17,867 nucleotides of DNA, taken from assembly GCA_028681035.1 (NCBI GenBank), contig JAQUJJ010000070.1, positions 1 through 17,867 on the forward strand, written 5' to 3'. Below are positions 1 through 17,867 of the stretch, piece by piece. A program made the position numbers and the translations under genes. Position 1 is the stretch's first letter; each line of letters begins with the position of its first letter. Source of the DNA: Candidatus Cloacimonadota bacterium (GTDB lineage Bacteria > Cloacimonadota > Cloacimonadia > Cloacimonadales > Cloacimonadaceae). The notes below the pieces were generated by a model. It worked only from the letters and a program-made list of their open reading frames with translations. It was not told where the DNA came from and searched no databases.

Positions 1-140
1 AAAAGGGTGATTTAAGAAAGATGATTTGTTCCTATCATTTGCATCAGGTACCAGTTAGATTACTTTTTATCAGGGTCATAACCATTTTCGTAGGGTCAAT
101 TTTAGGACAATGAACCTTTCTTATCTCCGCCTCGCAGCCC

Positions 141-1876: not shown

Positions 1877-1891
1877 TACTCCTTGAATCTT

Positions 1892-1910
1892 TTATCTTTT
1901 GGCAAGATAA
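1892..1910. promoter_or_regulatory. Dyad over the -10 box (possible operator)
   Basis: TTATCTT (1892-1898) and AAGATAA (1904-1910) form a perfect 7-bp inverted repeat with a 5-base centre. The right arm contains the predicted -10 box of the minus-strand promoter and the left arm covers its start site. A repressor bound here would block the promoter. In RNA it would be only a weak AT-rich hairpin, so a DNA operator is more plausible than a terminator. Confidence 0.35.
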
Positions 1911-1932
1911 GTTTGAGCGCCTTAATGGTCAA
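1904..1932 (-). promoter_or_regulatory. Sigma-70-like promoter of the 1073-1876 / 141-1076 pair
   Basis: Read on the minus strand, TTGACC (1932-1927, 5 of 6 matches to the -35 consensus) is followed after exactly 17 bases by TATCTT (1909-1904, 4 of 6 to the -10 consensus). Transcription would start near 1897, about 20 bases before the first ATG. The call rests on consensus matching only. Confidence 0.45.
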
Positions 1933-2095
1933 GAGAAATTGGAGAGTTCAGAGTTTTTGGCGGTGGATGCTTGATTTTACAGCCAATATTTCGAGAAGCT
2001 CATTATTTTTGTCAGGATCACTTTCCTGCCCTGCATGTAACAATACAGAAGGCGCGGTTATAAAGCCGTGTCCCAAAAATTCCTGGGAGGAAATC

Positions 2096-3064
2096 ATGAT
2101 AAAAGTTCTACTCGACAAACTTGTAAGTTACGAGACCGGTGAGCCACAAAGCTATGGCGCGCTGAGAATCTATCCGATGCTGGGCAAGGCCGATTGTCCG
2201 CACGACTACATCTCCCTGCGCAAGGCCCTGGAAGCGGGAGAAATCCACATCTCGGAGCTTAGCCAGAGTGGCAGCGTTCCGGAATTGAAGGTGATCAATC
2301 AAGGAAAACATACCGTGCTCATCTTGGCCGGAGAGGAACTGCGCGGTGCCAAGCAAAACCGCATCCTCAATACTACCGTTTTGATCGCCCCTCTTAGCGA
2401 GACCATCCTTCCGGTAACTTGTACCGAAGCAGGACGTTGGTCTTACCAAAGCAAAGAATTCAGTGAATCCGGAAACATGATGCAGCCCAGCCTGAAGAGT
2501 AAGTTAGTGCATAGCGTATCAGTATCTTACCGGATGGACCGCAGTGCCAGATCCGATCAACATGAAGTCTGGGCAGATATCGCCAAGCTGCAGATGGAAC
2601 ATGCCAGCCATTCGATCACCGGTGCCATGGCGGACGTGTATGAAACAAGCAAGGACAAACTGGAGGATTTTCAGAAGTCCTTCCCGCTCACACCAGGACA
2701 ATGCGGGATCTATGCCCTGATCGGCAAACGCTTTGCCGGCCTGGATCTGGTCTCCAGCCCGGAAGTCTGGCAGGATCTGTATGACAAAATCCTGAGATCC
2801 TACGCTATGGACGCTCTGCGCAGCCAGGAACAATGTCCACCGCAGGATGATTCCAGACCCAGCCTGGAAGATCTGCTGAGGGATGCCAGACTGAGCGAAT
2901 TCGACGGAATCGGTCTGGGCAAAGAACTGCGCATTGAAAAACCGAATCTCACAGGCTCGGCCTTGATCTGGAATGATCACCCTGCTCACCTGAGTGTTTT
3001 TCCACATCAGGGAAGTGAAAGCAGAATGAATAATGAGAGATTTCATCGTGGAATGAGGGGCTAA
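2096..3064 (+). CDS. ARPP-1 (DUF6569) family protein
   Basis: A 322-residue ARPP-1 family protein. The family is known from its association with ADP-ribosylglycohydrolase and rhodanese-phosphatase superfamily proteins; its biochemical activity is not established to my knowledge. The family signature is clear: YPMLGKADCPHDYISLRKAL (about 26-45), SGSVPEL (58-64), GEELRGAKQNRILNTTVL (79-96), the C-T-E-A-G-R-W-S stretch (109-116), and SDQHEVWADI (153-162) followed by an S-x-T-x-A element. The length is normal for the family. The frame is open upstream to 1865, but the start is set at 2096 because GGGAGG (2085-2090) lies 5 bases before this ATG and the family begins here; the upstream part has no family similarity. 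TATAAA at 2059-2064 is a possible -10 box. The gene stands alone on the plus strand and ends before a strong hairpin. Confidence 0.88.
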   Translation: MIKVLLDKLVSYETGEPQSYGALRIYPMLGKADCPHDYISLRKALEAGEIHISELSQSGSVPELKVINQGKHTVLILAGEELRGAKQNRILNTTVLIAPLSETILPVTCTEAGRWSYQSKEFSESGNMMQPSLKSKLVHSVSVSYRMDRSARSDQHEVWADIAKLQMEHASHSITGAMADVYETSKDKLEDFQKSFPLTPGQCGIYALIGKRFAGLDLVSSPEVWQDLYDKILRSYAMDALRSQEQCPPQDDSRPSLEDLLRDARLSEFDGIGLGKELRIEKPNLTGSALIWNDHPAHLSVFPHQGSESRMNNERFHRGMRG

Positions 3065-3098
3065 TAATAAACCCGGACTTACGTAGGGCGGGCTCTGA

Positions 3099-3124
3099 AA
3101 AGCGGGGAGTTGACTCCCCGCTTT
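3099..3124. terminator. Bidirectional hairpin terminator between convergent genes
   Basis: AAAGCGGGGAG (3099-3109) and CTCCCCGCTTT (3114-3124) are perfect 11-bp inverted arms around a TTGA loop. The GC-rich stem is flanked by A and T runs, giving a short U-tract in both directions. It lies 35 bp after the ARPP-1 stop and 27 bp after the end of the minus-strand defence genes, so it can end both transcripts. Confidence 0.85.
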
Positions 3125-3150
3125 GAACTTGAGAATTGGACAAGATTCTT

Positions 3151-3903
3151 CTATTTAGCCATCCAATCTTCAGGCAATAAGAGAGGGTTACACAGCCACT
3201 GATTATCCTTTCTGATGATACCCAAAGCCCCCGATGTATCTGAAACTATGAACGGAAAGCAATCCAAATTGAATATGGCAGGTTTCTTTTCAACCTCTTT
3301 CGTAAGAAACTCAAACCGCTTGACTATCGCTTCACGATATGAATATGGAAGTGATCTGTCCTCAATGAGTAGTAAATCCACACTTTCAGCATAGTGTTTG
3401 TTTCGCTTTGTTTCTATAGCTGATAAGATGATAGATACCCATTGTTTTTCAGCATACCACCCATACATTCCGGTATCCTGTAAACCCTCTCCTTTAACTA
3501 CCAGATTTTTCCGCATTTCCCCTTTTAGTGGCTTTTCGGAAGTAAACATGTCATTAGATACTTCTGCCATATCAATATCGTCATTAGCTAGGGATAACTG
3601 ATGCTTGAGAGCTTCGTTTTTCATCGTAGTAGCACGGGTAATCTCGATTAGCATTACCTCCCCTCTGCTCAAGACTATCTCAAAATCTGGCTCTTCTCTT
3701 TTTAGCACTCGATAAGGATACACCAGAAGCTGACTGATACATTGCATGAATAGATTCTTCTTAAGGGTGTTCAACAGGCACTGCCATTCACTAATGTAGC
3801 AGTTTGACCTGATGCTTTGGCAACCAAACACCCTTTCGTGATGATACTTCACATCTTGCGGGTTGTTTATTAACACTTCTGTAAATGTATACTGCTTTTT
3901 CAT
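3151..3903 (-). CDS. Hypothetical protein, possible PD-(D/E)xK-like nuclease
   Basis: A 250-residue protein I cannot assign to a named family. Residues 72-89 (PDFEIVLSRGEVMLIEIT) resemble the core of PD-(D/E)xK enzymes: an acidic residue after a Pro, a turn, then a hydrophobic strand carrying Glu. The usual Lys of ExK is replaced by Thr (E87-I-T89). Further on, a hydrophobic strand and helix with Lys residues (about 155-170) lead into VDLLLIED (175-182), also typical of this fold's later strands. No signal peptide or membrane segment is seen. Its ATG overlaps the stop of the DUF262 gene as ATGA, so the two should be made together. It is the last gene before the bidirectional terminator. A nuclease or nucleic-acid-binding accessory role is inference; the reading frame is well supported by the coupling. 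Confidence 0.7.
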   Translation of the reverse strand: MKKQYTFTEVLINNPQDVKYHHERVFGCQSIRSNCYISEWQCLLNTLKKNLFMQCISQLLVYPYRVLKREEPDFEIVLSRGEVMLIEITRATTMKNEALKHQLSLANDDIDMAEVSNDMFTSEKPLKGEMRKNLVVKGEGLQDTGMYGWYAEKQWVSIILSAIETKRNKHYAESVDLLLIEDRSLPYSYREAIVKRFEFLTKEVEKKPAIFNLDCFPFIVSDTSGALGIIRKDNQWLCNPLLLPEDWMAK

Positions 3904-5708
3904 GCTTCGTCAGGCTTAAGAATGCTGCTGTTTTGTTCGTCCAATTTTGCGTAAACTCTTTCAGTGGATAGATGTTCCCCATCATACACAATCCTTGCTG
4001 CTTGTTCCAAAAGCATCGATCTTGCTTCCACAAATCGAGAATAATCTTGCTGTATTTTAGCCTTGGTTTCAGTACTGTCGAAATCAGAGTAGTCAACATT
4101 TAGCTCTTGAATCGGGATTAAATGACTTCGCAGTCTTCTGTTTCGCTCTTTTTCACCTAAGTCGCAGTTTTCTGCTCTTTCCAGGAGATACTGCATAGGG
4201 TTCTTATCTGAAATGGTTCGATTTGTTTTCCAAGAGATCAGCGCACAATTGGCAGAACTGAATATCTTGTTGTTTGGTATATCAGTTTTGCCCAGTAATG
4301 CTGCTGGGAACAAGTGATGATACTCTCTGCTAAGGACGCTTTGCTTTGTGGCAGGGGTATTGTCAGCAATATCATAAGCTCCACATTTTATTTGCAGAGC
4401 CAGAAGACCTCTACCCAAAATAGTCCTATTCTTAGCCCAAGCAGCATCGCTGATTACCTCTTTCACCGGAGCAGGATATTCCTGTTCGTTAAAGATTGGG
4501 ATATCTTTGTACTCACCTTTGCCGAGAAGGTAGTCCTTTATCTTACGAAAGTCCGATAAAGAATTTGTGGTAGTTGCCTTCTCATACCTGTCTGTGAGAA
4601 ATGCTCTCCACAAATACTTTTTGAGAAGATGCCTGGCATTACCCAGTTGATCTACATTCGTGGGCAAGTATTTAGTAAGCGCTGCAAGTACTGGCAGGAC
4701 TGTATATGAAGGTAGTCTCTTTTCATCGTATATATGCTCTTCTTCCAAGAGGTCAACCATCTTGGTGAAGCAGCTTTCCAAATCATCCCACTCATCAACT
4801 AACTGCCGATAATTGATGTTTACATAGCCTGCTTGGCTTGGTATGATATCTTGCAATAAAGCGATCGTATCCAGCACCAGGTCTGGCAGATCAGCGTAAT
4901 CTTTTACTTTGGGAACTTTCGTGGCTAATGAATCTACTAATTCATGCAGTGATGTTTCGGCAGTGTCCTCCACCAAAGCTACAACTATATCATAAGCAGT
5001 CAGTTTAACAGAACTGGTATTAAGCTTGATAAACACATCCAGGGCAACATGCTTCTTTGTAGTGGAAGGAAGCTCCAAAAAAGGAAGATTGAAATGCTTG
5101 ATTCTCTCACGTAGTGCATCAATCAGATCATCAAGAAACTCTCGCATCTCAATATCATCTGGTGCTGCTGCCTTGAGCCATAATTTCTTTTCTTTAGATA
5201 TATCATCAGGACGAAGTAAATGAACAGGGATCAATCCCCTTTCCCAGCATTCTTTGGCTGAATTGATCCACATTGGATACTTATTGCCTTTTTTCTCGTA
5301 AACAGCCTGAGCTACCACTTCAATTTCATTTGATTCAAGATAATCAGATGGATTGACATTGAAATCAATGGTCGATTTGTCTATCGAAACGAAAAATGTC
5401 CGCTTATCATACAGATTGTAAAGGCTTTTCCACATTGCTGTTAAGCGTTGTTGCCCATCCAATAGTTGCTCAGTGATGTTTCTTCCGCCTTTTGGGGTCC
5501 CGTCTAAGTATTTGCTTCCAAACTGCTCAGGTCCATCAACTCTTAAAATGAGAGCTGCTCCTGTAGGTAAGCCTCTTAACATGGATCGCAGTAAGTTTGA
5601 TACTTCATTGTGAGTCCATGCTTCAAATCTCTGGAATCTAGGCAGAGTTAGCTGCCCTAATTCTATCAGGTTAAACCATTTGTATAACGGTCTGTTGTAT
5701 GCTTGCAT
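3900..5708 (-). CDS. DUF262-DUF1524 (GmrSD-type) nuclease
   Basis: A 602-residue protein with the two-domain layout of the GmrSD family. The N-terminal DUF262 domain (ParB/sulfiredoxin-like fold) shows LPRFQRFEAW (22-31), LRGLPTGAALI (44-54) and the hallmark DGQQR (84-88), which in this family binds and hydrolyses nucleotide; FIKLNTSSVKLTAYDI (226-241) is a second conserved DUF262 block. The C-terminal DUF1524 domain has an HNH-like site: His464-His465 in EYHHLFP, Asn487 and Asn496. Relatives (GmrSD, BrxU, SspE) restrict phage DNA, several of them in a modification-dependent way. Both catalytic motifs look intact. The target DNA or modification cannot be read from sequence. It lies 68 bp after the HNH nuclease gene, with only a weak ribosome binding site (GAGGTT), and is coupled by ATGA to the next gene. 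Confidence 0.88.
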   Translation of the reverse strand: MQAYNRPLYKWFNLIELGQLTLPRFQRFEAWTHNEVSNLLRSMLRGLPTGAALILRVDGPEQFGSKYLDGTPKGGRNITEQLLDGQQRLTAMWKSLYNLYDKRTFFVSIDKSTIDFNVNPSDYLESNEIEVVAQAVYEKKGNKYPMWINSAKECWERGLIPVHLLRPDDISKEKKLWLKAAAPDDIEMREFLDDLIDALRERIKHFNLPFLELPSTTKKHVALDVFIKLNTSSVKLTAYDIVVALVEDTAETSLHELVDSLATKVPKVKDYADLPDLVLDTIALLQDIIPSQAGYVNINYRQLVDEWDDLESCFTKMVDLLEEEHIYDEKRLPSYTVLPVLAALTKYLPTNVDQLGNARHLLKKYLWRAFLTDRYEKATTTNSLSDFRKIKDYLLGKGEYKDIPIFNEQEYPAPVKEVISDAAWAKNRTILGRGLLALQIKCGAYDIADNTPATKQSVLSREYHHLFPAALLGKTDIPNNKIFSSANCALISWKTNRTISDKNPMQYLLERAENCDLGEKERNRRLRSHLIPIQELNVDYSDFDSTETKAKIQQDYSRFVEARSMLLEQAARIVYDGEHLSTERVYAKLDEQNSSILKPDEA

Positions 5709-5776
5709 ATATTAACCTCAATTTAGTAGTTAGAGTTGAATACATCCAGTTTGTTACTGCTCATTGCGTGAAATTG

Positions 5777-6721
5777 TCAGCTATTTAACTGGCGCAATAA
5801 ATCGTTTGTTAGCTTTGAATATGGTTTTTCGTGGTATTCCTCAAGTTGAGGTGAGACATTAAAAAGCATTCTAAAGATGTCCTTATCCGATAAATGCCCA
5901 AGTTCTGGAACAAGGTGGTTTAAACTCTTATTATAGATTTTATTATATATCTCTTTATTTCTATAAATGTCTACAACTATGTCTTTGTGGTGATTATATC
6001 TTTCGGTTATGCGCAATTTATTGACTTGCTTTTTTTTCCTTAGATCATCCGATTCAAAGATAACTTTTGAATCGCTGGTATCATTTGATAATAATGGAAT
6101 AAACGATCGTCCAGGAATAAATACAAATCTATCATTATCATCAAAGTGGTCGTCATGGGGATTAATAACGATTTGCTGTTCCTGCTTAACATGATTACAG
6201 CTATGACAAACTGGAATAAGATTATAAAACGATAAGGCAAAAAATGGATATATGCTTTTTGGTAAAAAGTGATCGAGTTCGGCGCGCATCTTTCCTGAGC
6301 CTTTGTCGTATATGGAATAAGTACAATTCTCATTACAATAAGGACACGTCTTAAGTCCAATCCCGTCAACCAATTGGTAAGATCCCCAGAGCTTTTTCTT
6401 ATTATAGGGTAACCCAGTATAACTAAAGAAATGATAGTCAAAGATTTCTAGGATATTATCTTTCAAATTCCTGTAATCCTTATTTACTGCTTTTATATCC
6501 TCATCAAACTCTTTAAGCCATTGAATACGTCTACCTAAAATCATATCAATGTTAGCAATAGCTAATGTTATAAGAGCATCCAAAGACTTCCTTTTAGATT
6601 GTGACAATTCTGTTAGGATTTTCCCATCTTTGTATTGTTGATACCTGAATGCTACAAACTGCTTGCAATAGTGAACATGCTTTCTCTTCGTATCTTCCAA
6701 ATCTGTCCAAATCTTCAGCAT
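5777..6721 (-). CDS. ptuB: HNH endonuclease, PtuB-like (Septu)
   Basis: A 314-residue HNH nuclease with the features of Septu PtuB. The zinc-ribbon-type HNH domain has CPYC (126-129), ELDHFLPK (148-155, catalytic H151), N167 in SFYNLIP, and C172-x-x-C175 followed by N176. The two Cys pairs should bind a structural zinc ion and His151 should activate water for DNA cleavage. The N-terminal 100 residues are helical and Lys-rich, and the C-terminal part is also helical; these are expected to contact the ATPase. It follows the ATPase gene after 29 bp with a good AGAGAGG site. Coding an HNH protein directly behind this ATPase type is what defines Septu; the same pair also occurs in some retron systems, but no reverse transcriptase gene is nearby. 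The HNH call is firm, the Septu label moderately so. Confidence 0.8.
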   Translation of the reverse strand: MLKIWTDLEDTKRKHVHYCKQFVAFRYQQYKDGKILTELSQSKRKSLDALITLAIANIDMILGRRIQWLKEFDEDIKAVNKDYRNLKDNILEIFDYHFFSYTGLPYNKKKLWGSYQLVDGIGLKTCPYCNENCTYSIYDKGSGKMRAELDHFLPKSIYPFFALSFYNLIPVCHSCNHVKQEQQIVINPHDDHFDDNDRFVFIPGRSFIPLLSNDTSDSKVIFESDDLRKKKQVNKLRITERYNHHKDIVVDIYRNKEIYNKIYNKSLNHLVPELGHLSDKDIFRMLFNVSPQLEEYHEKPYSKLTNDLLRQLNS

Positions 6722-6750
6722 AACTACCTCTCTTTACCGGGATTTACTAA

Positions 6751-8691
6751 TCACTTGTGCAATTGATCTAGAAAGTCATTATCACCCTTGTAAGAATGAA
6801 TAGCATCCTCTAACTGCTTTGTAAGGAATGATTTTATTATCGGCTCTCCTATTGCTGATATTAATGTATGCACATCATTCATCATAGCATTATCGATCTT
6901 CAGACCATTAGAGTTCTCTATCTCATGAATTATCTTTAGTATCTCTTCGATTTTTAGTTTTGCAAAAGATCCTATATAGTCGTTATCAAAGAAGAATGCA
7001 TCATTTAATAGATTGTAAAGATTCGCCCCAAATGTAGAATTCCCTCCCTCTTTATAGCAATCTATGATATCTGAATCTCTACCATCACTATGTCTACAAA
7101 GTTTGACAACATTTGTCGGCAATATGTCTGACAAAGTTAATGGATTATTTGTCGAAAAAACTATCTGTATTCTTCTCTGATTCTTAGAATCAGAATTTTT
7201 TGAATCGCTGGCATAATCTATTGCAATGAACTTGATAATGGATTCTATAAAGCGCTTTTGCCACTCAGGATGAAGATAGACATCGGGCTCGTCTAGTAGA
7301 AGTAAGATGTCATCCTTATCTATATGAGACACATATGTTGAATCAACGAGATAGTGAAGGCGTGAATACATATTAAACAAAGCAAGCTGACCGGAGCTTA
7401 ATCCGCTCCAATTAAAATTCAACGCTCCTTCAATAATCTGGGTACCAAAGTACAACTCAAGGAATTGAGATAAACCTAAAATGCTCTTGTGGTTTATATT
7501 GTAAACATATCTATTTGTTAAGTCCCAATACTCAATGTGTTGAGCCTCAAAAGCTCCAATAAAATGCTTCAGCAGCTTTCCTATATTGTCAAAATGATAC
7601 CTGAAAGCTTCAAACATAGATCCTAGAGTAACGATAATCTTCTGTAATGATTCATAAGAGGGCTCATACGATTCCAAGTCGAAGCTCAATTTAGCTAATT
7701 TAGGCTTTACGAAATTAATGCCATAGTGAAGAATACAATAAAGGTTGTGTATTAATAAATACGATACGAGTGGTATAATAACTATCTCATAATTTGGTGA
7801 TTTCTTGTTGAAACGTATTTTCATTTCAATGTTCTTTCGTAAAATTCCGATCAAAGATGTAAAAGCTTCATTATCTGGGAATGTCAATTCCTTGTACTTA
7901 TTTATGATCTCCGCAGTAACTTCATTTAATGCAGGTTCGTTGGCTCTTTCTATGACCAATTTATCAGGCAGTGAAAATGGCAGTGTCAGATTATTTTTCT
8001 TATGATAGAAACTAACGAAACGAAGTTGTTTCTCTATCTCAGAATTGTGATACGCTTGGACATCAGATAGATACTGCGCCTGGGGGGTTTTGTTTTCATT
8101 GAGTTTGATTTTTTCGTTTCTTACTAAGTAGTTTGTTGAGATGTTCTTTAGTCCAATTACTTCACTTTCAAACCTCTGATCAAAGATATTCGAGAAAAAG
8201 ATAATATTTACATCTCGAAATGGCTTCGTTCCTACCACGGTAGTTCGGGAACTTGTACCGTGCTTCCGAGGTATGATTTTCAAATCTAATCCGGTTCTAT
8301 CTTCAATCCTAATATCATGCTCATTGTATACGAATAGCGTAAAAGCACCATCTTTGTCTCGGTTTACAAATAGGCAATTAGTATCTATTTCTCCCTCTCC
8401 ATCAGGAAAGTAACCTTTAATAAAGTCGAACACCGTTGTTTTGCCAGATCCGTTTTCTCCAACTAATGCAGTCACATTAGTAATATGGGCTACTTGATCA
8501 TGGGCTAGAGGATCTACAGCAGGTAAATTGTAAAAACCTTGTATATAAGATTTGTTTTTCTTGGATGTTATAGTAACGATATTCGTAGAATATTGTGAAA
8601 AATCAAGACTGAAGAGGTTCTCACCTCCAAAGTTGAAACCCTGCTTCTCGAGGCACTTGTATTTCTCTATCCAAAGATATTCTATTGTCAT
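6751..8691 (-). CDS. ptuA: AAA/ABC-type ATPase, PtuA-like (Septu)
   Basis: A 646-residue ATPase with an SMC/ABC-type head split by a long helical insert. Walker A is GENGSGKTT (78-86), the signature is LSSGQ (431-435), and Walker B with D-loop is ILLLLDEPDVYLHPEW (462-477). The switch position reads FSTNNP (512-517), with Asn where this class normally has His (T-H-S/N). Family knowledge: PtuA forms oligomers that hold PtuB and control its nuclease through nucleotide binding. The opening (IEYLWIEKYKCLEKQGFNF) is typical of ATPases paired with HNH proteins in defence loci. GGGAGG lies 5 bases before the ATG. The gene is AT-rich compared with the DUF499 and DUF1156 genes, which suggests separate origin. 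It could alternatively be an OLD-like ATPase, but there is no Toprim domain. Confidence 0.82.
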   Translation of the reverse strand: MTIEYLWIEKYKCLEKQGFNFGGENLFSLDFSQYSTNIVTITSKKNKSYIQGFYNLPAVDPLAHDQVAHITNVTALVGENGSGKTTVFDFIKGYFPDGEGEIDTNCLFVNRDKDGAFTLFVYNEHDIRIEDRTGLDLKIIPRKHGTSSRTTVVGTKPFRDVNIIFFSNIFDQRFESEVIGLKNISTNYLVRNEKIKLNENKTPQAQYLSDVQAYHNSEIEKQLRFVSFYHKKNNLTLPFSLPDKLVIERANEPALNEVTAEIINKYKELTFPDNEAFTSLIGILRKNIEMKIRFNKKSPNYEIVIIPLVSYLLIHNLYCILHYGINFVKPKLAKLSFDLESYEPSYESLQKIIVTLGSMFEAFRYHFDNIGKLLKHFIGAFEAQHIEYWDLTNRYVYNINHKSILGLSQFLELYFGTQIIEGALNFNWSGLSSGQLALFNMYSRLHYLVDSTYVSHIDKDDILLLLDEPDVYLHPEWQKRFIESIIKFIAIDYASDSKNSDSKNQRRIQIVFSTNNPLTLSDILPTNVVKLCRHSDGRDSDIIDCYKEGGNSTFGANLYNLLNDAFFFDNDYIGSFAKLKIEEILKIIHEIENSNGLKIDNAMMNDVHTLISAIGEPIIKSFLTKQLEDAIHSYKGDNDFLDQLHK

Positions 8692-8738
8692 AAAAACCTC
8701 CCAATCATAACAAACTGACGACTTTTGAAAAGGTGCAA
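8688..8738 (-). CDS. Possible 16-codon leader ORF before ptuA
   Basis: In the 69-bp gap before ptuA a strong AAGGAGGAG (8749-8741) is followed by a TTG codon at 8738 that opens a 16-codon frame (HLFKSRQFVMIGRFL after the start). Its TGA overlaps the ptuA ATG by two bases (ATGA). The layout fits a leader peptide coupled to ptuA translation. The SD-to-TTG distance is short and the start codon is weak, so this is tentative. Confidence 0.2.
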   Translation of the reverse strand: MHLFKSRQFVMIGRFL

Positions 8739-8760
8739 TTCTCCTCCTTGATATGTATGT

Positions 8761-11490
8761 TCATTGCTGTATATTGATTCTCTTGTATCTTCTGGCAAAA
8801 GCTTCTCTTCCGCCTTCTAAAACATCGCAAACACTATTCCGAACATCTATCCGTTGAAGGCTTCCCTGAGACTTTATTTCTGTGCGACCATTGGGCACAT
8901 GCAAAGTTATCACATTCTCTGCATCTCCATTAACAACAATATTTGCATTGTGAGTGACGACTATTACTTGCCTCCGTATTTTGTTACTTCTTAGTGACTC
9001 TACAATGAGACTATATATCATGTGGTTGTCAATATCATCTTCTGGTTGATCAAGCACAAGTGGCTCATCTCCATACGATAAAATAAAAGCCAATAGAACT
9101 GCCGTCCTTTGACCAGGTGACCCTGTCTCTAATGGAACAAAGTCTCTACCTCTTGCTTTGAATTCAATTTTTAAAGAGTCTTCAGGGTACCAACATAACA
9201 GTCCATCTATAATTGATGCCGGTAATTCCTGAATTCTTGCAGCAAATCTTTTATCCTTAGCCGAATATGATCCTCCTTGTTTGTTCTCATAAACATCCAT
9301 AATCATCTGCTTGAATCTATGTATCCTTTTTAAAGCTGTGCCATCTCCATTGACCAGAGAATACATCATACCCCCTTCATTATCAGGATTCATGTCCCTA
9401 TCAAACAAATCTGTACTCGAAAACAATATTTCTCTGATGGTCTCTGGAGATTCGGCAACACACCCATAAGGCACAACTGTAATCTTCACAAATTCATTAT
9501 TGGAAAGGACATTGTCCAAAAACAATTGTCTTTGTGCTGTTAACTTCTCGCGGAAAGGATGAATTTCTTTACAGGTTAGGTTGCATAGTTTTTTTAGCCT
9601 TAAAAGATCATTTGATCTTCTGTCAAGCTTTGTCTTTTCTCCTTCGAGAAACTGCATTCTAGCTAATAACTCAGTGTGCTCAGAAAGATTAGTTATACCT
9701 GCACTTTCCATCTCAACAATAGTTTCATGGTAACTACTCTCAATTTGCAATCTTCTTTGGTTAAAAGGGAGTGCACTATATTTTTCTTTCCATAATTTTG
9801 CTACTACGTTGACACTATCCGCAGAAGCCTCAATACTTGAAATAACCCCGTTTATACTTTCTTTCGCTTCATAGTAAGCAGATACCACTTCAAGACCTTC
9901 TGCGTCTGATGCAAACAATGACTCGTCTATAGCGGGACATTCTATAGATTGTTCAAACTCACTTATTATATCTGATAGTTCAGTCAGACCTGTCTCAAAA
10001 GCATGTAACTCATTAAGCTGCTTTTGTAAAACACCATACGAAGATAATTTTTCCGAATTGCCTTTCTTGTTAAATACCGAGAGTTTCTGTTTAACGTCAC
10101 TTATTTGACCATTTATTGAACGTTTTTCTTCATCTGTAACTACGGTAGACCTGAATCGTGAACGTTCATCAAGAAACTTATCTTTCAAGCTTGAGAATTC
10201 TCTTTCCCAGTTTGAATAGCCCACCTCAGGGGCATCATCAATAATGTCTAATAGTCCTTGGGTATTACGAGTCATATCAAAAATTTGTTTCTGACTGTAT
10301 ATTCGGATTGGAAATCTTCCAGATATGTCACCTTCATCTGGCTCCCAATTATCGTCTACGAACTTTTCAAGGGTAAAATTCTCATTATCTTTTTGGAATG
10401 CTATTCTATACTGAGCTTCATCTTTCCAATAACGGACATTTAAAACCGTGTTTGCTAGCAGCAATCCATCCTGGTCACGTGAATGCACAAGGGTATACTT
10501 TTCGTGTTCCATCCCAAGAGCCTCCGGTATTTCAGATTCCCGACCTAAGACCTTACGTAAAAACTCAATTATTGTTGACTTTCCAGTTCCTCTACCGCCT
10601 ATTATTGCATTTAGCCAGGGATTGAAACGAATTGTTAGTTTCTCACCTCTTCCCAGGTATTTGGCATTATCAATTACAATTTTTTCTATCATCATATTAC
10701 TGTGAATGTTTTGGTCTGATGCAAACTGGTCAGATCTCCGTATTGATAATTGACCATCTATCAAGGCCAGCCTCAAGCCTTCTATGCTGGGTTGTTCCAT
10801 CTTTACCCAAGTGAATCTGATTCCAGGATAGGGAAGAACTGAATCTGAATCATAATTCAGCTTATGCGAATCAGACCCAAGTACATCAGTCCATTTAATC
10901 TTTCTTTGTGCATACAATGGAGGTTTTGCATTATTTAGATCGATAGTCTCAATTGCAAAGATACTTGGATTCCGCATCACGTTTTCTAAAGTAGTTCCAT
11001 TTATAGCTGAGAATAATCCTTTGGGTTGATCAACATGGGCAGGAATAGCTATTCCCATACTCTTTGAAATCTCAGAAACAACTTCATCTATTGGTTTTTC
11101 AGTGACACTATCACTTGTCCCTTTTGTTCCTCTAAACCCAACCGCTCCGAGAAGTGAAGCTATATCAGAAGTACTTGTTTCTAATGGTAAAATCGCTAAT
11201 ACGTGAATTCCATTATTAACAGAAATTTCAACTCCTGGAAATATACTTAGTTCCCTAAACCCGGATGGATTAGATTGTTCCATAGTTAAGTAAGCTTGCT
11301 TAAGCCTATCCACCCAATCCCCAGTATTATGATCTGTAATGGCCACACAGTCTATTCCAGCTTTCATGTATGCTAATAGCCAATCTTCTGGTGTATCAGT
11401 TTTAGTCGGGTAGTCATTAGAAGCAGGAGTATGTGTATGGAAGTCAAATTTCCACCATTTCGCACCTGTCCAAATCTTATTAAAAGTCAT
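8761..11490 (-). CDS. trlF: TrlF-like PHP-domain and SMC/ABC-type ATPase
   Basis: A 909-residue fusion. The N-terminal PHP phosphoesterase domain (about 12-245) has all expected metal ligands: HTH (18-20), TDHN (52-55), GVE (86-88), H96, H152 and GSDSH (205-209). PHP enzymes use two or three metal ions to hydrolyse phosphoesters. The C-terminal part is an SMC/Rad50-like ATPase: Walker A GGRGTGKST (298-306), a coiled-coil-rich middle (about 430-680), signature SPGQR (791-795), Walker B LVLDQPEDD (811-819) and H-loop THN (846-848). This matches the TrlF family of AAA-like ATPases. All catalytic residues look intact, so an ATP-gated nuclease or phosphatase is likely; the substrate is unknown. 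It follows the DUF499 gene by 70 bp, which contain a small dyad and an AAGGAG site. Confidence 0.85.
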   Translation of the reverse strand: MTFNKIWTGAKWWKFDFHTHTPASNDYPTKTDTPEDWLLAYMKAGIDCVAITDHNTGDWVDRLKQAYLTMEQSNPSGFRELSIFPGVEISVNNGIHVLAILPLETSTSDIASLLGAVGFRGTKGTSDSVTEKPIDEVVSEISKSMGIAIPAHVDQPKGLFSAINGTTLENVMRNPSIFAIETIDLNNAKPPLYAQRKIKWTDVLGSDSHKLNYDSDSVLPYPGIRFTWVKMEQPSIEGLRLALIDGQLSIRRSDQFASDQNIHSNMMIEKIVIDNAKYLGRGEKLTIRFNPWLNAIIGGRGTGKSTIIEFLRKVLGRESEIPEALGMEHEKYTLVHSRDQDGLLLANTVLNVRYWKDEAQYRIAFQKDNENFTLEKFVDDNWEPDEGDISGRFPIRIYSQKQIFDMTRNTQGLLDIIDDAPEVGYSNWEREFSSLKDKFLDERSRFRSTVVTDEEKRSINGQISDVKQKLSVFNKKGNSEKLSSYGVLQKQLNELHAFETGLTELSDIISEFEQSIECPAIDESLFASDAEGLEVVSAYYEAKESINGVISSIEASADSVNVVAKLWKEKYSALPFNQRRLQIESSYHETIVEMESAGITNLSEHTELLARMQFLEGEKTKLDRRSNDLLRLKKLCNLTCKEIHPFREKLTAQRQLFLDNVLSNNEFVKITVVPYGCVAESPETIREILFSSTDLFDRDMNPDNEGGMMYSLVNGDGTALKRIHRFKQMIMDVYENKQGGSYSAKDKRFAARIQELPASIIDGLLCWYPEDSLKIEFKARGRDFVPLETGSPGQRTAVLLAFILSYGDEPLVLDQPEDDIDNHMIYSLIVESLRSNKIRRQVIVVTHNANIVVNGDAENVITLHVPNGRTEIKSQGSLQRIDVRNSVCDVLEGGREAFARRYKRINIQQ

Positions 11491-11503
11491 TCCTTCACTC
11501 CTT

Positions 11504-11530
11504 GGTTTCTATTCTTATGTCACAGAAACC
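11504..11530. promoter_or_regulatory. Short inverted repeat before trlF
   Basis: GGTTTCT (11504-11510) and AGAAACC (11524-11530) are perfect 7-bp inverted arms around 13 bases, directly beside the AAGGAG ribosome binding site of the PHP-ATPase gene. It could be a weak hairpin affecting translation or a protein-binding dyad. With no T-run it is unlikely to be a terminator. Chance occurrence is possible. Confidence 0.25.
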
Positions 11531-11560
11531 GTAATCTTCTCTTTATCAAAAGCTATCATT

Positions 11561-14404
11561 CTATTCAAACTCACTCAAATCAAACCTGAGTGTGTTGCAA
11601 TTCTCTTTGATCGTGCGCTGTGTAGCTTCATCAAAGCCTTCCAGACAGTCTGCTTCGATTTCTATTTTGATGCTTGCATTGACGGTTGGACTTTTAATCA
11701 GATGCAAGACTATCTCATCGACAATAGTGGCAAAATCTGCTTTGGCTCGGGGTGGGTTCAAATCTATCCTGCCATAAAAGCGTTTCTTGTAAGGGGCTGG
11801 TTCGGGAATGGGACCTGTACCACCAGCTCCATTAGGAGGAATTGCCCCTTCACTGCCACCATCCGCTGTTCCACCAGTGCCGGGCTCTCCTGCGCCTGTT
11901 TCATTGGGTGTGGGCGTCCTTGCAGCATCTTTTTTGGCCTGATATTCTGCTGCTGACATTGGCTCAATTAGCAACAAGGAACTATCAAACACAGGCATGA
12001 TAGCCTTAGCATAGGAGAAGCCGATATACTCTTCACCTTCCTTAGCATAAGCCAAGCCAAAGAAATCTCTGTTCCCTGCTCCCGCTGCGATAGCATTGGA
12101 AAAAGTGTTCTCATTCTTGAGTCTGGGTAGGTAGAGATAGCAACAAGTGCTATGCCAGATATCCTTGGCTTTCACATCTTTAATATCCTCTTTCCAGAAC
12201 CACCGCTTCAGCAGGTTGTGAAGATGAATGGGTGACCACTGAGTTATCAGTTGCTCGCTATCGCTTAGAATCCGTTCTATCTCTCCCACGAGATTTGGCA
12301 CACTTGGGTTGATCGTGAAAGCTTCAAATTTATCACCCGGCACCTTATCCTGTTCCGGCACCAAGATCCATTTATAAGTTTCTTTCACCAGGCGATCAAT
12401 GGATTTCTTGGCATCCTCAAACCCAGTCTTAGCTTGTTTGCTTTGGTATTGGTCGAGGTTGAGTTTCAGGGTTTGGATGTCTTTGAGGATGGAATCCCAA
12501 GCCAGCAAGGTAAGCACCTGATCTTTCAATCTGCCCATCACTTCACCATCGGCAGCCAGGAAGATCAATCTATTTTGTTTCAGTCTCGGTTGTTCTCCCC
12601 GAGTTGTAAGTATTTTCTTAGCTCCCTCGCTATTCAGCGTGCCCCCTATGGCAAAACTGCCCCCAGAACGCAGGTAATAGGCATCAGGTGGCAAGATCAC
12701 CAGCCGCAGCGAGTAATCATCCGGAATGTCATCAGAACGCGTGAAAATGTGGATGCCGTCGAAACAGCCATTATTTACCAAACGTTGAAGCTGCTCTTTG
12801 ATCACCGGGATTACATCATCTTTATCACTAAAGCGCCGTTTGCGGTCTTCCATCTCGCGTCTCAGGTTCGGACGCGTATCAAACCAAAATAGCTTATTAT
12901 CGGCATTGCTGAGGTAATGCAGTTTATCTACCAAACGGGTCATGGCATCCTTGAAGATACCAATCACCTGATCTGGCTGCACCGCTCCCAGCAGAATCCT
13001 CTTGTACTCAATACCTCTGGAAGTGCGGGCCGCATGCAGGGCTACTGCGTGCGGAGCAGAGCCAAAGAAGATGGTTCTCGCCAGCTTCTTACAGGCTTGC
13101 AATTGACCAAATCTGGCTTCATTCTTCTCAATCTGCGCGGTTTCCGAGCGTGAGCCATCGATGTCCCTCTCCAGGACAGGGTCCCAACCCTGGGGCAGAT
13201 AGTAGATAACTTCATGGCGGACATCGGCATCGTATAGCGGCAGATTGCCTGGCGTGATCAGCGGGTCTTTATTATCGTCTATCCAAAGCTTATGTATGAT
13301 CTTCGCCATCAGTTTGAGCACACCGCGCGTTCTTTGGAAGTTATCCAGGCTCGACCAATCTTCATACAAACGGTCAAAGATCTCAGGATGAATGGGATAG
13401 GCCTGTTTCAAACGCTCATAATAGTGCGTTTCCTGGGTCTCATTGGGAAAGTCACCCGGGTTTGCAATATAAAAATCCGCATAGGCCCGGCAGGTCTCTT
13501 CCAGCGACTTTTGATCGGTGATATTGGCGAACAGCCTGCGGCGTACTATTTCAAACGCTTCTTCGGTAGCCACAGGTTTCCACAAGGCCTGAATGCGCCC
13601 AAAAGTATGCTCCAACGAACGCAGTACATTGATCCCAATCTGACCGCCGGCCTCTTTATCGGATTCTGGCAGTGAAGCCAACATAAGGGCACTTGGCACC
13701 GCCTTCAAGGCTTCCGTCAAAGCATGGATAAATGAGATGTTGGAATCATAACTGCCACCAGTATAGCTCTTATTCGGCTCAAATTGACGGATATAAGCCA
13801 CCAATTCATCCACCAGAATCACACAGGGAGCATATTGCGTCAGCAGTGGGATCAGCACCTCCTTACCGGGTGAGGTGCCACTCAGATCAGCTTGTTTTAC
13901 TTGCTCATAGCCATTTGCACCACCCAATTGCCAGGCAAGCTCTCCCCAAAGGGTATTTACTGTAATGCCACCTCTGATTCTCGGGCTTCCCGGAGAGAGC
14001 TGATTGCCGTCTATCACTGCCACCTTAGCGGGGGGCAAAGATGTGATTCCTGCTCTATCTATCAAGGGTGGAATGCCTTGCAAATCAGACAAAGGCACCT
14101 CGCCCTTGGCCAGGTGATATACAGCCAGCATGGTATGCGTCTTTCCACCGCCAAAAGCGGTCTGCAATTGGATTACAGGATCGCCTCCCTTGCCGCTCAA
14201 ACGCTGAATTACAGAATCAAAGAGTAAGCCCATGCCTTCTGTGATGAAGGTCCTCTGAAAGAACATCACCGGATTTTGATACTCTGCGCTGGCATCTCCG
14301 GTATGCACCCGGGAAAGGTCTGCGGCAAATTCTGATTGTTTGAAAGTACCTTTTAGTACGTCCTGATGCGGTACTGCGATGTCTCGCCATGCTTTGATAG
14401 TCAT
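11561..14404 (-). CDS. DUF499 P-loop ATPase
   Basis: A 947-residue DUF499 protein. The N-terminal ATPase has Walker A FGGGKTHT (84-91), Walker [11 protein letters not shown] (195-204) and a sensor-like stretch MLASLPESD (241-249). A large central region (about 250-820) is helical and typical of the family. Residues about 829-871 form a linker made almost wholly of Gly, Pro, Thr, Glu and Ala, followed by a small C-terminal domain (872-947) that should fold independently. DUF499 proteins are regularly encoded beside DUF1156 methyltransferases in putative restriction-modification-like systems, where they are thought to act as the motor or regulatory ATPase. That is the arrangement here, with only the small winged-HTH gene between. 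The GAGG site lies in the last codons of that gene, 5 bp upstream, so translation is coupled. Confidence 0.88.
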
Positions 14405-14408
14405 GTTT

Positions 14409-14816
14409 TTATCCTCGTTTTATCTCGTTAAATTGCCAATAGCCGGTTTTGTCTGAACCGATGCGGCTAATAATTCCAGCCTTCTTAAGAATCTGAATGT
14501 TCCGCATTACAGTGACTCTGTTTATAGCTAAGGTATCTGCCAGTGTATCGTAAGATACAAAGGGATCGTTTACTATGTTATCAATGATCTTTTGCTGAGT
14601 ATCTGTCAGTTTTACAGGTGCATTTACAGGTGCATTTACAGGTGCATTTACAGGTGCATTTACAGGGTCATTTATAGGGTCAATTGTAGTTTCATCCCGA
14701 TACATCGTGATCATCAGGCAGTCCTCATCAGTGCTAAACTCCGGCTCTTTTCCAGTAATAGCTTTCACCTGCGGGATCACTTTGGCGATCAGATCCAAGG
14801 CTTGCTTCTTTGTCAT
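14409..14816 (-). CDS. Small winged-HTH protein with tetrapeptide repeats
   Basis: A 135-residue protein in three parts: a short N-terminal segment (1-45, with [20 protein letters not shown]), a run of (A/D)-P-(V/I)-N repeats (46-69), and a winged helix-turn-helix (70-130) whose recognition part reads [20 protein letters not shown] followed by the wing [13 protein letters not shown]. This order closely resembles the C-terminal tail of AlbA_2 (Schlafen-like, divergent AAA-4) regulators, which often end in 'PEF..' , a DPVN-type linker and a winged HTH. The AlbA_2 and ATP-binding parts are absent, so it is either a standalone DNA-binding subunit or a shortened relic. It starts immediately after the methyltransferase stop (TAGATG) and ends 4 bp before the DUF499 gene. 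It may target the complex to DNA or regulate the operon; both are inference. Confidence 0.8.
14617..14688. repeat. 12-bp tandem repeat within the winged-HTH gene
   Basis: Four perfect copies of GGTGCATTTACA (14617-14664) are followed by two diverged copies, GGGTCATTTATA and GGGTCAATTGTA. Further to the left, GTCAGTTTTACA (14605-14616) may be another decayed copy. Each unit encodes one A/D-P-V/I-N tetrapeptide on the minus strand. A change in copy number would lengthen or shorten the linker without breaking the frame. Confidence 0.95.
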
Positions 14817-17684
14817 CTAAAACTCAAATTCGGTTTGCTCATTTTGGGCTTCACTCTTCACCGCCTGCTTTTCGATGGAGAGCCAGGCTGTAACGATATC
14901 GTTATAGGGACGAGCATCTTCTGCCCAGCCCTTGCGCTCACATAGGGTGTAGAGTAAAAAGGCAAGCTGCCGGGCTGTTGCCGATAGTTGTGGAAGAGCA
15001 GACACAATCTCGGCGGCGGCAGATTCTCCACTGCTTTGGTGAGCCCGGATAAGCTGATGCAAAACCTCCCAAACAGGAGTGCGGCTATCTTTCAAGGCCT
15101 TCCAATCAGCGGGATATTCTGCAGGACGATAGAGACGCACCTTGCCAGCTTCGGCAATGAGAACTCCACTATCCCGGACGCCTTCTACAGAAAGACCTTT
15201 TGCCTTAGCAAGTACTTCGGCATCGCCATAAACCCCTTCTTTGAAACCATATTCACTAAACCACTGCAAACAAAAACGGGTGTCATTATCCCAATCCCCT
15301 TCTCGCTCTTTGAAATACTCATCCAAAGCTTTATTAATCAGGATCAGGGCTGTGTGGACTGACATTGGGCTACCGTCTGCTTCCAGAATGGCTTTGTACT
15401 TGGAAAATACCGCCATGCCGGGGCCGATGGAGGCTTGAGCTAAATCAACAGGAGATATCGGACTCGAAGTATCGCTGCCATTGATCATAGTATCTAACGC
15501 CTTGGGTATCTCTTGATTTAGTTCTCGTAAGAAATCCTTGCGGCTGATCGTTTGTGCAGCTACATCACGCTTACGGCAGACTAAAACAATACTTGAAGAA
15601 AGCATATTGCTACCAACACCACTTACTTTGTTAGCAAGTTCTGTTCGCATAGGCCATGTGCCAACAATTGCCATATCTGATTTGATAACAGCATCTAAGA
15701 AGGTTACCCATCCAGTTGAAGAACTTCCGGAATTGGTAGTTTCCGATTGCTTGAATGCGTAGTAAATAGTGACGGGAAAACTTGGATGAGCTTGACTGGA
15801 GATGTTGCTCATTGCCTTAATCATGCCTTCAAGAAAGAAGGAATCGGCCTCTTTTTTTGAATCATGACGATACTGAGATGCGACTAACTCGTTTTCCTTG
15901 GGAGTAGCTAAAGTCAGAAATAAATCTGGAAAAGCTTGTTTAAGGACAGGCTTTTGCCACACATAAAAGAAGTCAGACAAATCAGCATACATGATATTAT
16001 CGTAATACGGTGGATCTGTCGACACTATTTTATTTGTGGTTATACACTGTGATGTCGCGTCAGCTAACTCAACAAATCCTGTTATAGATGGATCAAATGA
16101 CTTAAGTGCTTTCCATACCCAACTTAACATAGATGTCCAATTTCCTGAAGAGTTTGAGAAAGGGTTTACCTCTACAAAATCCCATACCATTGCAATTGCT
16201 TGTCTGCCAAATGTATTCCTGATTAGGGATTTGCTAATGTGCCAACTACATGCAGTAGACCAGTAGTCTGCACATTTATCGACACCGAAACTTAGATATA
16301 AGGTAATAGCATCTTGGTACTTAATTGTTCTTAACTCTGTTTCTCTTCCCTTAGGATAATCAATCTCAGAAACAAGCTTGTAAAAGTTAATCAAGGCATT
16401 AAGTTGTCTATCACTAAATATATCCCCATATGTTCGCATTCCATATAATGGTAACTGGTCTGCACTTTTCCCAACCAATGATTGTTCTGGTTTCCATTCA
16501 GGTTTAACTGAAACAGCAATATCCTCTTGAATTTGATCGGGTGATAGGTAAACTCTCTCATTCTTGCCCTCACAAACAATGGCCATCAGCTTAGATGCCA
16601 TTCTGCCAGCCTGGCCTTCAGCTTTAATGTATTTCCCATCAATCGGGGTGCCAGATAAGAGGCAATAAAAGGTTGAGCCTCTACCTGCGGCCTTAGTGCC
16701 CTTCTTCACTTTTTCAAGATCCTCGGGCATGCCAAATCGAACTTTGAACTCATACTTGTCTCCATTAACAATCGGCTCGATCCAGGCTTCCTTACCCTTC
16801 TTGTTTGAAAGTAGGAATGTGGAGGCAAGAGGAACATTGGCATATGAGAATAAGGGATTAGGACTCTTAACGGTTCTTGCCCAAAGATAAGCAATAACCG
16901 TCAGTTTTTTCCCTTTATACTGTTCTAAGTCATGACGCTCTGCCACCATTTCAGAGCTTACCTTGATGGGCGGATAGAGATGTCCGAGACGTTTAAAGGC
17001 TTCTTGTCTAATCCAATATCCATATCTGCGAACGTCCTCTGCCAGCCCAGTTATGTCTGGCCAAGTATATTGACCGGTATCAATTTGCTTTTCATGGGCA
17101 GGAATAGGCCCGATGGGGCGTCTGCCTACAAATTTGGGTGGAATTTCAATCATGGCTTTATTGATTAGTACTGCCACCGGGTTTAGGTCGCTGGCCCAGG
17201 CTTCCAGACCAAGCCTTTGCGCTTCCAAAGGAATGGAACCGCCTCCGGCGAAGGGATCATGGAAAGCAGGCAATTTGTCAGGATTAAAGAGTTCAGCCGC
17301 TTCGGGATGATCTTTATTAAGTTCACAGGTAACTTTCCAGCTTTTCTTGATTTCTGTTCGCGCTTGGTTTAGGACAAGTTCATTAGTGGTATTTTCCCAT
17401 TTAACCAGTTCTCTAATGATACCAAAGAGTCGTTCTCGTTCCCGATTCGCATCTGCTTTTCGCTTATAGCCTATCTTAAGTTTTTCGTCCCAGCCGGGAT
17501 CATTTACCAATTGCGCAAAGAGCACGGCTCTGGCCGCAGCCAAAGGACGTCTTGCCCAATACAGATGCAAAGTGGAGGGATGACCCTGATTAATAGATTT
17601 TTCCCGGACGCAGGCTTCATTGATCTCTTTGAGAGGAAGAGCTACTTCTATGAGTTTCTTGGGGGCTTTCACCTGATATGTCAT
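14817..17684 (-). CDS. DUF1156 DNA methyltransferase
   Basis: A 955-residue methyltransferase with an N-terminal DUF1156 domain, recognised by KSINQGHPSTLHLYWARRPL (29-48) continuing into AAARAVLFA. The catalytic domain has SAM-binding motif I DPFAGGGSIPLEA (143-155) with SDLNPVA (165-171), and motif IV DPPY (557-560) in STDPPYYDNIMYADL. D-P-P-Y places it with amino-methyltransferases of adenine N6 or cytosine N4. About 400 residues separate the two motifs and may include target recognition. It should mark host DNA, with the DUF499 ATPase as partner. The length is usual for the family and nothing catalytic is missing. The start overlaps the stop of the preceding gene as ATGA. Specificity cannot be read from sequence. 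Confidence 0.9.
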   Translation of the reverse strand: MTYQVKAPKKLIEVALPLKEINEACVREKSINQGHPSTLHLYWARRPLAAARAVLFAQLVNDPGWDEKLKIGYKRKADANRERERLFGIIRELVKWENTTNELVLNQARTEIKKSWKVTCELNKDHPEAAELFNPDKLPAFHDPFAGGGSIPLEAQRLGLEAWASDLNPVAVLINKAMIEIPPKFVGRRPIGPIPAHEKQIDTGQYTWPDITGLAEDVRRYGYWIRQEAFKRLGHLYPPIKVSSEMVAERHDLEQYKGKKLTVIAYLWARTVKSPNPLFSYANVPLASTFLLSNKKGKEAWIEPIVNGDKYEFKVRFGMPEDLEKVKKGTKAAGRGSTFYCLLSGTPIDGKYIKAEGQAGRMASKLMAIVCEGKNERVYLSPDQIQEDIAVSVKPEWKPEQSLVGKSADQLPLYGMRTYGDIFSDRQLNALINFYKLVSEIDYPKGRETELRTIKYQDAITLYLSFGVDKCADYWSTACSWHISKSLIRNTFGRQAIAMVWDFVEVNPFSNSSGNWTSMLSWVWKALKSFDPSITGFVELADATSQCITTNKIVSTDPPYYDNIMYADLSDFFYVWQKPVLKQAFPDLFLTLATPKENELVASQYRHDSKKEADSFFLEGMIKAMSNISSQAHPSFPVTIYYAFKQSETTNSGSSSTGWVTFLDAVIKSDMAIVGTWPMRTELANKVSGVGSNMLSSSIVLVCRKRDVAAQTISRKDFLRELNQEIPKALDTMINGSDTSSPISPVDLAQASIGPGMAVFSKYKAILEADGSPMSVHTALILINKALDEYFKEREGDWDNDTRFCLQWFSEYGFKEGVYGDAEVLAKAKGLSVEGVRDSGVLIAEAGKVRLYRPAEYPADWKALKDSRTPVWEVLHQLIRAHQSSGESAAAEIVSALPQLSATARQLAFLLYTLCERKGWAEDARPYNDIVTAWLSIEKQAVKSEAQNEQTEFEF

Positions 17685-17867
17685 TTCTTTACCTTCGGTT
17701 TTATCACTTTTCCTATTTGTTTCAGCTCCTGCACTGCCTGAACAAAATGGTTTTCTGCTTCAGTAGGGGCAGTGAGTTCCACTTTGTGCCATCTTTCATA
17801 TTCCAGCCGAGCCTTTTGCGCTGCGTCATCGTGGGCTATGGAACCAGCATGCTCCAGGATTTCTCTG
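17681..17867 (-). CDS. C-terminal end of a probable RhuM-family protein (partial)
   Basis: The window edge cuts this gene; about 61 residues of its C-terminus remain, in frame from 17866. The tail (ILEHAGSIAHDDAAQKARLE, then YERWHK, and later FVQAVQELKQIGK and a Lys-rich end) matches the pattern I associate with the RhuM virulence family end: AG-x-IS/A-H-x-x-A, A-x-x-EYE-x-(F/W), then a helical F-x-x-A-V/I-x-x-(L/I). RhuM proteins are common beside restriction-modification genes, but their function is not settled. Its TGA overlaps the methyltransferase ATG (ATGA), so the operon continues beyond the right edge. The family call rests on a short tail. Confidence 0.5.
   Translation of the reverse strand, partial: REILEHAGSIAHDDAAQKARLEYERWHKVELTAPTEAENHFVQAVQELKQIGKVIKPKVKK

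Follow-up and report, generated by a model that had tools for sequence, protein, structure and literature searches.

The question raised by a 17,867-nucleotide stretch of DNA from a Candidatus Cloacimonadota bacterium (GenBank assembly GCA_028681035.1, contig JAQUJJ010000070.1, positions 1 to 17,867; hereafter the window) is whether an unbroken run of nine defence-type genes on its minus strand constitutes one composite system or several systems stacked together. As judged from its protein sequences, the core of this run is the named Hma system, alias Type-1 BREX-related (BR), and we propose, with a probability of roughly 0.8, that the run is an Hma operon acting as a cargo platform, its exchangeable accessory modules lying in the intervals of the core and downstream of hmaC. 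The accessory modules are RhuM, a truncated AlbA_2 gene, TrlF, an M62 ATPase-HNH pair, and a GmrSD gene with a restriction endonuclease (REase)-like protein. An initial annotation, made from the sequence alone, had offered both possibilities; its stack of three or four systems was largely right, in that relatives keep the core and differ in cargo, and its single composite system, taken strictly, finds no support, close relatives keeping the core but varying the cargo.

From the right edge of the window to position 3151 the nine genes are co-directional and no gap exceeds 70 bp, and a hairpin terminator with a perfect 11-bp stem (3098..3123, no strand assigned), recognised from sequence and fold, closes the run. 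The gene coordinates bear out what had first been described, namely an uninterrupted one-strand run of nine genes with no gap much above 70 bp, in which two junctions (RhuM/HmaB and GmrSD/REase, both −4) overlap by an ATGA. The HmaB and winged helix-turn-helix (wHTH) genes abut (0), wHTH/HmaC are separated by 4 bp and M62A/M62B by 29 bp, and wider gaps follow HmaC (+70 to TrlF), TrlF (+69 to M62A) and M62B (+68 to GmrSD), such that between-module gaps measure 68–70 bp and within-module gaps 29 bp or less. GC content is 0.44–0.49 in HmaB/HmaC, 0.335–0.38 in TrlF/M62 and 0.40–0.41 in GmrSD/REase; such breaks in composition and spacing are expected if the modules differ in origin. Eight of the nine genes have family matches and the ninth, encoding a 250-aa protein, belongs to an unnamed protein family; opposite-strand open reading frames (ORFs) within the run reach 152 aa. 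A consensus scan listed no terminator-like site in any gap of the run. Across the window, promoter-like sites were about as frequent as chance would predict (44 found versus 38.4 expected, standard deviation 6.6), with one weak site in the TrlF-M62A gap. No sequence feature was found that would split the run into independent transcripts, and it may be read as a single transcript. It is probably incomplete as seen, since hmaA would be expected past the right edge.

We assign the core to Hma because full-length matches tie HmaB and HmaC to the Hma models of PADLOC. HmaB (14817..17684, minus strand), a predicted DUF1156 adenine-type DNA methyltransferase, matches PDLC00660 with an E-value of 0 over residues 1–954 as well as PF06634, and carries GGGS and DPPY motifs; HmaC (11561..14404, minus strand), a predicted DUF499 ATPase, matches PDLC00662 with an E-value of 0 over residues 1–947 as well as PF04465, and carries GGGKT and LVDE motifs. 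Two components of Hma/Type-1 BR, a DUF1156 N6-methyltransferase and a DUF499 ATPase, are therefore present, full length and in one operon, and HmaC is far closer to the HmaC model (E = 0) than to the DUF499 model PDLC02192 (5e-44). DUF3780, the Type-2 BR marker, was not among the families of the searched window proteins, the locus being cut at the edge. In relatives the SNF2 helicase HmaA comes first: it precedes RhuM-HmaB in two Cloacimonadota genomes (G012, G019) and HmaB in a third (G015), and among the first 80 loci it stands before HmaB wherever both were located, none being reversed, with the domains of one copy checked. Because relatives carry hmaA there, as in the G012 order, the gene is probably located immediately past the right-hand end of the window. 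Distant loci from a viral collection (L109, L111, L115) show the order HmaC-HmaB-helicase, opposite to the usual one. The earlier statement that the gene order is not that of a known single system holds for the whole run and fails for its core, which bears the name Hma, or Type-1 BREX-related.

The name Hma comes from Payne et al. 2021 (PMC8565338), the accessible part of which reports frequent co-occurrence with Septu type I, and was filed as Type-1 BREX-related by Rakesh and Krishnan 2026 (PMC12839542), the accessible part of which describes auxiliary nucleases adjoining or sitting within BR loci, including OLD-ABC + HNH, GmrSD and Schlafen-wHTH. The general idea of cargo in Hma loci is, as far as these excerpts go, already in print, and the association of Septu, auxiliary nucleases, OLD-ABC/HNH pairs, GmrSD and Schlafen-wHTH with Hma/Type-1 BR is common to this literature and the present locus. 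The locus differs in that hmaA is out of view and five cargo blocks occur at one site; furthermore, the terms “RhuM”, “Septu”, “TrlF” and “PHP” do not occur in the accessible text of PMC12839542.

The evidence for a cargo platform comes from a comparison of Hma loci, for which the best 80 of 501 relatives from a search of genome contigs were kept. HmaA and HmaB were located in order in 55 of these 80 loci and HmaB and HmaC in 75, the other five having no HmaB in view; interval ends are alignment ends, and small gaps are consequently approximate. The hmaA-hmaB interval is at least 406 bp in 38 of the 55 loci, 32 of which have a listed ORF, and 302 bp or less in 17, and the hmaB-hmaC interval is at least 397 bp in 46 of 75 loci (43 with a listed ORF) and 117 bp or less in 29. 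Hma loci thus have two places for extra genes, between hmaA and hmaB and between hmaB and hmaC, and listed cargo ORFs of at least 150 aa are co-directional with the core in 36/36 cases in the first place and 67/69 in the second. Cargo content was assessed by clusters, with one representative of each identified; the representatives match GmrSD, PtuB, HEC-02, HEC-08, PDC-M61, YhcG, NYN and TrlF-type genes. The first place holds NYN in 11/55 loci, HEC-08 in 8/55 and an AAA_15 ATPase with a PtuB-matching partner in 6/55; the second holds GmrSD in 12/75, an AAA_21 ATPase usually partnered by a HEC-02 match in 11/75 and PDC-M61 in 8/75. Turnover was counted against 200 shuffles, using an 85-row HmaC tree built with FastTree. 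Slot-1 cargo changed 31 times over 59 rows (shuffles: mean 35.1, minimum 29) and slot-2 cargo 41 times over 80 rows (mean 46.5, minimum 41); cargo turnover is fast, with some inheritance left.

These comparisons bear directly on the proposal that the run is one obligate composite machine needing every part, which we consider highly improbable. Its single strand, tight spacing and lack of any internal terminator found by the scan would suit such a machine, as would the recurrence of the core, TrlF, M62A and the REase-like gene in linked combinations, but loci with HmaC 70–85% identical to that of the window have different or no cargo, the hmaB-hmaC interval does not exceed 117 bp in the 29 loci just mentioned, and one part of the run is itself a stub. 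Because modules come and go in relatives, we regard the run as a stack on one core and no new ten-gene machine.

The nearest HmaC relatives are found in Cloacimonadota, where 11 of 124 genomes of the phylum were matched, some of the matches being distant or fragmentary. One of these loci (G012, HmaC 85% identical) has the order HmaA-RhuM-HmaB-AlbA_2-HmaC followed by the first 78 codons of trlF (81%). G019 has HmaA-RhuM-HmaB-HmaC, G015 has HmaA-HmaB-HmaC followed by other genes, and G039 has HmaB, an AlbA_2::wHTH gene and HmaC, followed by a 588-aa gene and a Shedu-like gene. In two Cloacimonadota loci (L129, 8036–10447; L131, 10937–13261) hmaC is followed by a gene of 558–588 aa and then one of 214–215 aa; the L129 pair has no PADLOC match and is Shedu-like, and the L131 pair was compared with it by printed starts only.

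A second alternative is an ordinary defence island, in which unrelated systems happened to land next to one another and nothing in the pattern is specific to Hma. To its credit, the chromosomal site is variable, because the left flank of the window (1–3064), 95% identical to that of a genome of the same phylum (G040) and so also pointing to a Cloacimonadota host, leads there to different genes (OmpA-family, MotA-like, tubulin-like and Macro; L187, L188) up to ackA, and distant M62 and REase-like relatives occur with no HmaB or HmaC in view (L137, L191, L192). The L191 locus carries a helicase distantly like HmaA. Association was assessed in 48 genomes, from 50 of the 80 loci that had long flanks and were chosen by eye. 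GmrSD N-terminal domains (E ≤ 1e-10) numbered 40 copies in 26 genomes, eight of them at Hma, where L035 has its copy in the first place and the rest have theirs in the second (matched by hand from contig ranges); TrlF above its cut-off numbered nine copies in eight genomes, three at Hma; AlbA_2 numbered 41 copies in 23 genomes, two at Hma; and none of 22 RhuM matches in 17 genomes lay at Hma by tblastn. Random placing of a ~10-kb locus in a ~4-Mb genome would by our estimate give ~0.1 per 40 copies; this null, the sole one used, ignores the clustering of defence genes. GmrSD and TrlF therefore lie within Hma cores or immediately beside them far more often than under random placing, which is a weak null, and the RhuM count sides with the island. 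The initial annotation had taken sub-blocks that co-occur as rarely as any pair of defence systems as its refuting case; the yardstick applied to this was random placing, which GmrSD (8/40) and TrlF (3/9) far exceed, with 2/41 for AlbA_2 and 0/22 for RhuM. What makes an ordinary island unlikely is that cargo sits between core genes, that 103 of 105 listed ORFs of at least 150 aa are co-directional and the same few families are reused, that GmrSD and TrlF counts at Hma compare with ~0.1 or fewer expected at random, and that HmaC adjoins M62A in an independent genome (G041).

That adjacency is a scar (L135, 4780–5300) left by a decayed Hma copy. It comprises a YhcG C-terminus (37%, 7e-26), a weak HmaB-N-terminus-like stretch of 11 residues (E 0.40) in frame with the HmaC end, the last 32 residues of HmaC (81%, 5e-15) and then the first 23 residues of M62A (74%, 2e-10), whose start is joined by an ATGA overlap. 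A remnant in a further genome (G045) retains the start of the REase-like gene (residues 1–54, 72%) with an ATGA start, and the frame ahead of it ends in a way that resembles GmrSD by eye only. Beside the intact Hma locus of G015 lies a chimeric ORF (L131, 10419–10895) that fuses GmrSD residues 1–109 to HmaC residues 902–947. We also compared contig records of 19, 42 and 4 clusters of the protein database: HmaC at 84% identity and M62A at 69% have the same longest contig of 22,977 bp (contig counts 1 and 2), an 86% M62A and a 72% REase-like protein share one of 14,629 bp (5 contigs each), and a 70% HmaC and a 70% REase-like protein share one of 271,417 bp (39 contigs each). From such matching records we infer shared contigs, and it is in part through them that the M62 and REase modules are repeatedly tied to Hma.

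Several results weigh against a cargo platform. The initial annotation had proposed counting how often the whole order is kept elsewhere, and no second locus with the complete order was found. HmaA is not seen in the window, which ends inside the RhuM gene. Of the initial set of 116 Hma loci, none had a match to M62A/B (tblastn, E ≤ 1e-5) or to RhuM. A co-directional ORF of at least 100 aa lies within 150 bp after hmaC in only 28 of 60 loci, and that place is therefore less fixed. The slot-2 count equals the shuffle minimum, and this cargo is thus partly inherited. Homology to trlF in G012 is lost after 78 codons, with 140 bp of contig still to run (L130, 12931–13074); an insertion, a break or a faulty contig end could each account for this, and an intact trlF is not established there. 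Finally, shared contigs are an inference from matching records, and the contig counts differ for the 22,977-bp case.

If the run protects its host, published family descriptions suggest how labour may be divided. HmaB would mark host DNA by methylation, HmaC would assemble or scan, and HmaA would cut unmarked DNA; the cargo would act as independent backup, GmrSD for example against modified DNA, and the M62 pair might be an ATPase sensor with an HNH nuclease. What the window itself bears out is the anatomy of this scheme. A bolder and distinctly speculative version would go beyond mere proximity to other defences: Hma would be an operon-embedded platform in which two internal sites are fixed and recombination through the conserved core genes exchanges the modules. 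The cargo would be wired to the core, the backup being triggered when Hma fails or is inhibited, and TrlF with AlbA_2 would form one two-gene module entering or straddling the core. An unnamed gene run becomes a testable model of a known core with internal places accepting interchangeable backup defences, and the intervals, turnover, decayed copies, TrlF-AlbA_2 pairing and narrow REase-like family provide targets for studying module dependence on the host operon.

Among the cargo genes, the RhuM-family gene (17681..17867, minus strand; PADLOC PDC-S05) occupies the hmaA-hmaB place. Its family had been named correctly at the outset, and only its last 61 aa are in the window, cut by the edge. This end is 69% identical to the RhuM end of G019, where the protein matches PF13310 (1.3e-109), and 51% to that of G012, in the same place in both; RhuM thus fills the first place in two of the three Cloacimonadota loci showing HmaA and HmaB.

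The 135-aa wHTH gene (14409..14816, minus strand), in the hmaB-hmaC place, is, from its alignment, a C-terminal stub of a Schlafen/AlbA_2 protein. It is 68% identical over 128 aa to residues 371–498 of the 500-aa G039 protein in the same place, whose domains are SLFN_AlbA_2, HATPase and wHTH. Tandem 12-bp repeats in the gene encode PVNA repeats before the wHTH. That this short protein is a purpose-made operon regulator or antitoxin, with no remnant involved, is a minority possibility in our view: its frame is intact, the hmaB stop TAG stands directly before its ATG, and divergence from G039 is lower at non-synonymous than at synonymous sites (dN 0.19, dS 0.62), but it equals the last 128 aa of the longer protein, starting inside its HATPase domain, and its dN/dS of 0.31 exceeds the 0.08 of HmaC in the same genome pair. 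The higher ratio hints at relaxed constraint and does not prove decay.

Directly after hmaC lies a TrlF/Ppl-like PHP-ATPase gene (8761..11490, minus strand; NF045780, 596 bits; PDLC02208 Ppl, 1.4e-135). The protein belongs with the TrlF family, at 596 bits against a curated cut-off of 350, and differs from anti-phage Ppl proper, for which its 574 bits fall under the NCBIfam cut-off of 1000. A distant TrlF also follows hmaC directly in L066. TrlF and an SLFN_AlbA_2-HATPase gene adjoin both in and outside Hma (L220 of G127, L221 of G147, L018, L020, L041); in the 48 genomes the two are adjacent in four (G127, G136, G137, G147), two of them on contigs without Hma, and they probably form a two-gene module. 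In the window and in G012, an AlbA_2 gene or stub stands before hmaC and trlF after it. A link between the adjacent pairs and this hmaC-straddling arrangement is only a guess, because the AlbA_2 proteins concerned are only ~25–30% alike. Outside the fetched Hma locus of G128, contig C109 (114203–117707) carries a TrlF-family match and then a RhuM match on the same strand.

The next two genes encode PDC-M62A, an ABC/OLD-type, Septu-like ATPase (6751..8691, minus strand; PDLC04735, 1.6e-113) with Walker A, SSGQ and Walker B motifs, and PDC-M62B, a putative HNH nuclease (5777..6721, minus strand; PDLC04743, 2.4e-54), in which HNH (PF01844) falls just under the cut-off and two CxxC and an LDH motif are present. 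As in both Septu and PDC-M62, an ABC-type ATPase is followed by an HNH protein, in the window after 29 bp. The pair had been called PtuA/PtuB-like, which is right as to likeness; Septu proper was rejected, as the PtuA and PtuB models (1.5e-12 and 7.4e-10) score far below the PADLOC candidate PDC-M62A/B models. Among the matches listed, five M62A clusters, that of the window among them, reach at least 65% identity, after which identity falls to 28%.

The GmrSD-like gene (3900..5708, minus strand) has a DUF262 N-domain (PF03235, 2.2e-21) with a DGQQR motif, as in GmrSD type IV restriction enzymes, and a relative in G033 (73% over residues 1–588). Its proposed DUF262-DUF1524 architecture is sustained for the first half only: the C-terminal GmrSD domain had no Pfam match at E ≤ 0.001, and just an HHLFP motif marks that part. 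It further differs from GmrSD in that the REase-like gene overlaps it.

That last gene (3151..3903, minus strand) encodes the 250-aa protein of a narrow family. From 223 word-sharing candidates, 43 clusters reached E ≤ 1e-3, counting that of the window itself, and two distant relatives occur in G033 and G074. Library searches gave no family match. Conserved positions are PD72-73 and E87-x-T89 (E87-I-T89 in the window protein), the latter an E-x-T where the PD-(D/E)xK criterion has E-x-K. An AlphaFold2 model (mean pLDDT 72.7) predicts an α-β-β-β-α-β core; the model had no Foldseek match at E ≤ 1e-3, and its weak VIA matches include several PD-(D/E)xK-type nucleases, the top rows being others. 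The original PD-(D/E)xK call thus lacks a family match and keeps a suggestive structure, from which a PD-(D/E)xK-type nuclease appears likely. One family member, P0123, is nearly identical to the window protein in its C-terminal part and different in its N-terminal part, and the family looks mosaic. Beside the island, positions 1865–3064 hold an ARPP-1 family gene together with two genes of no Pfam family.

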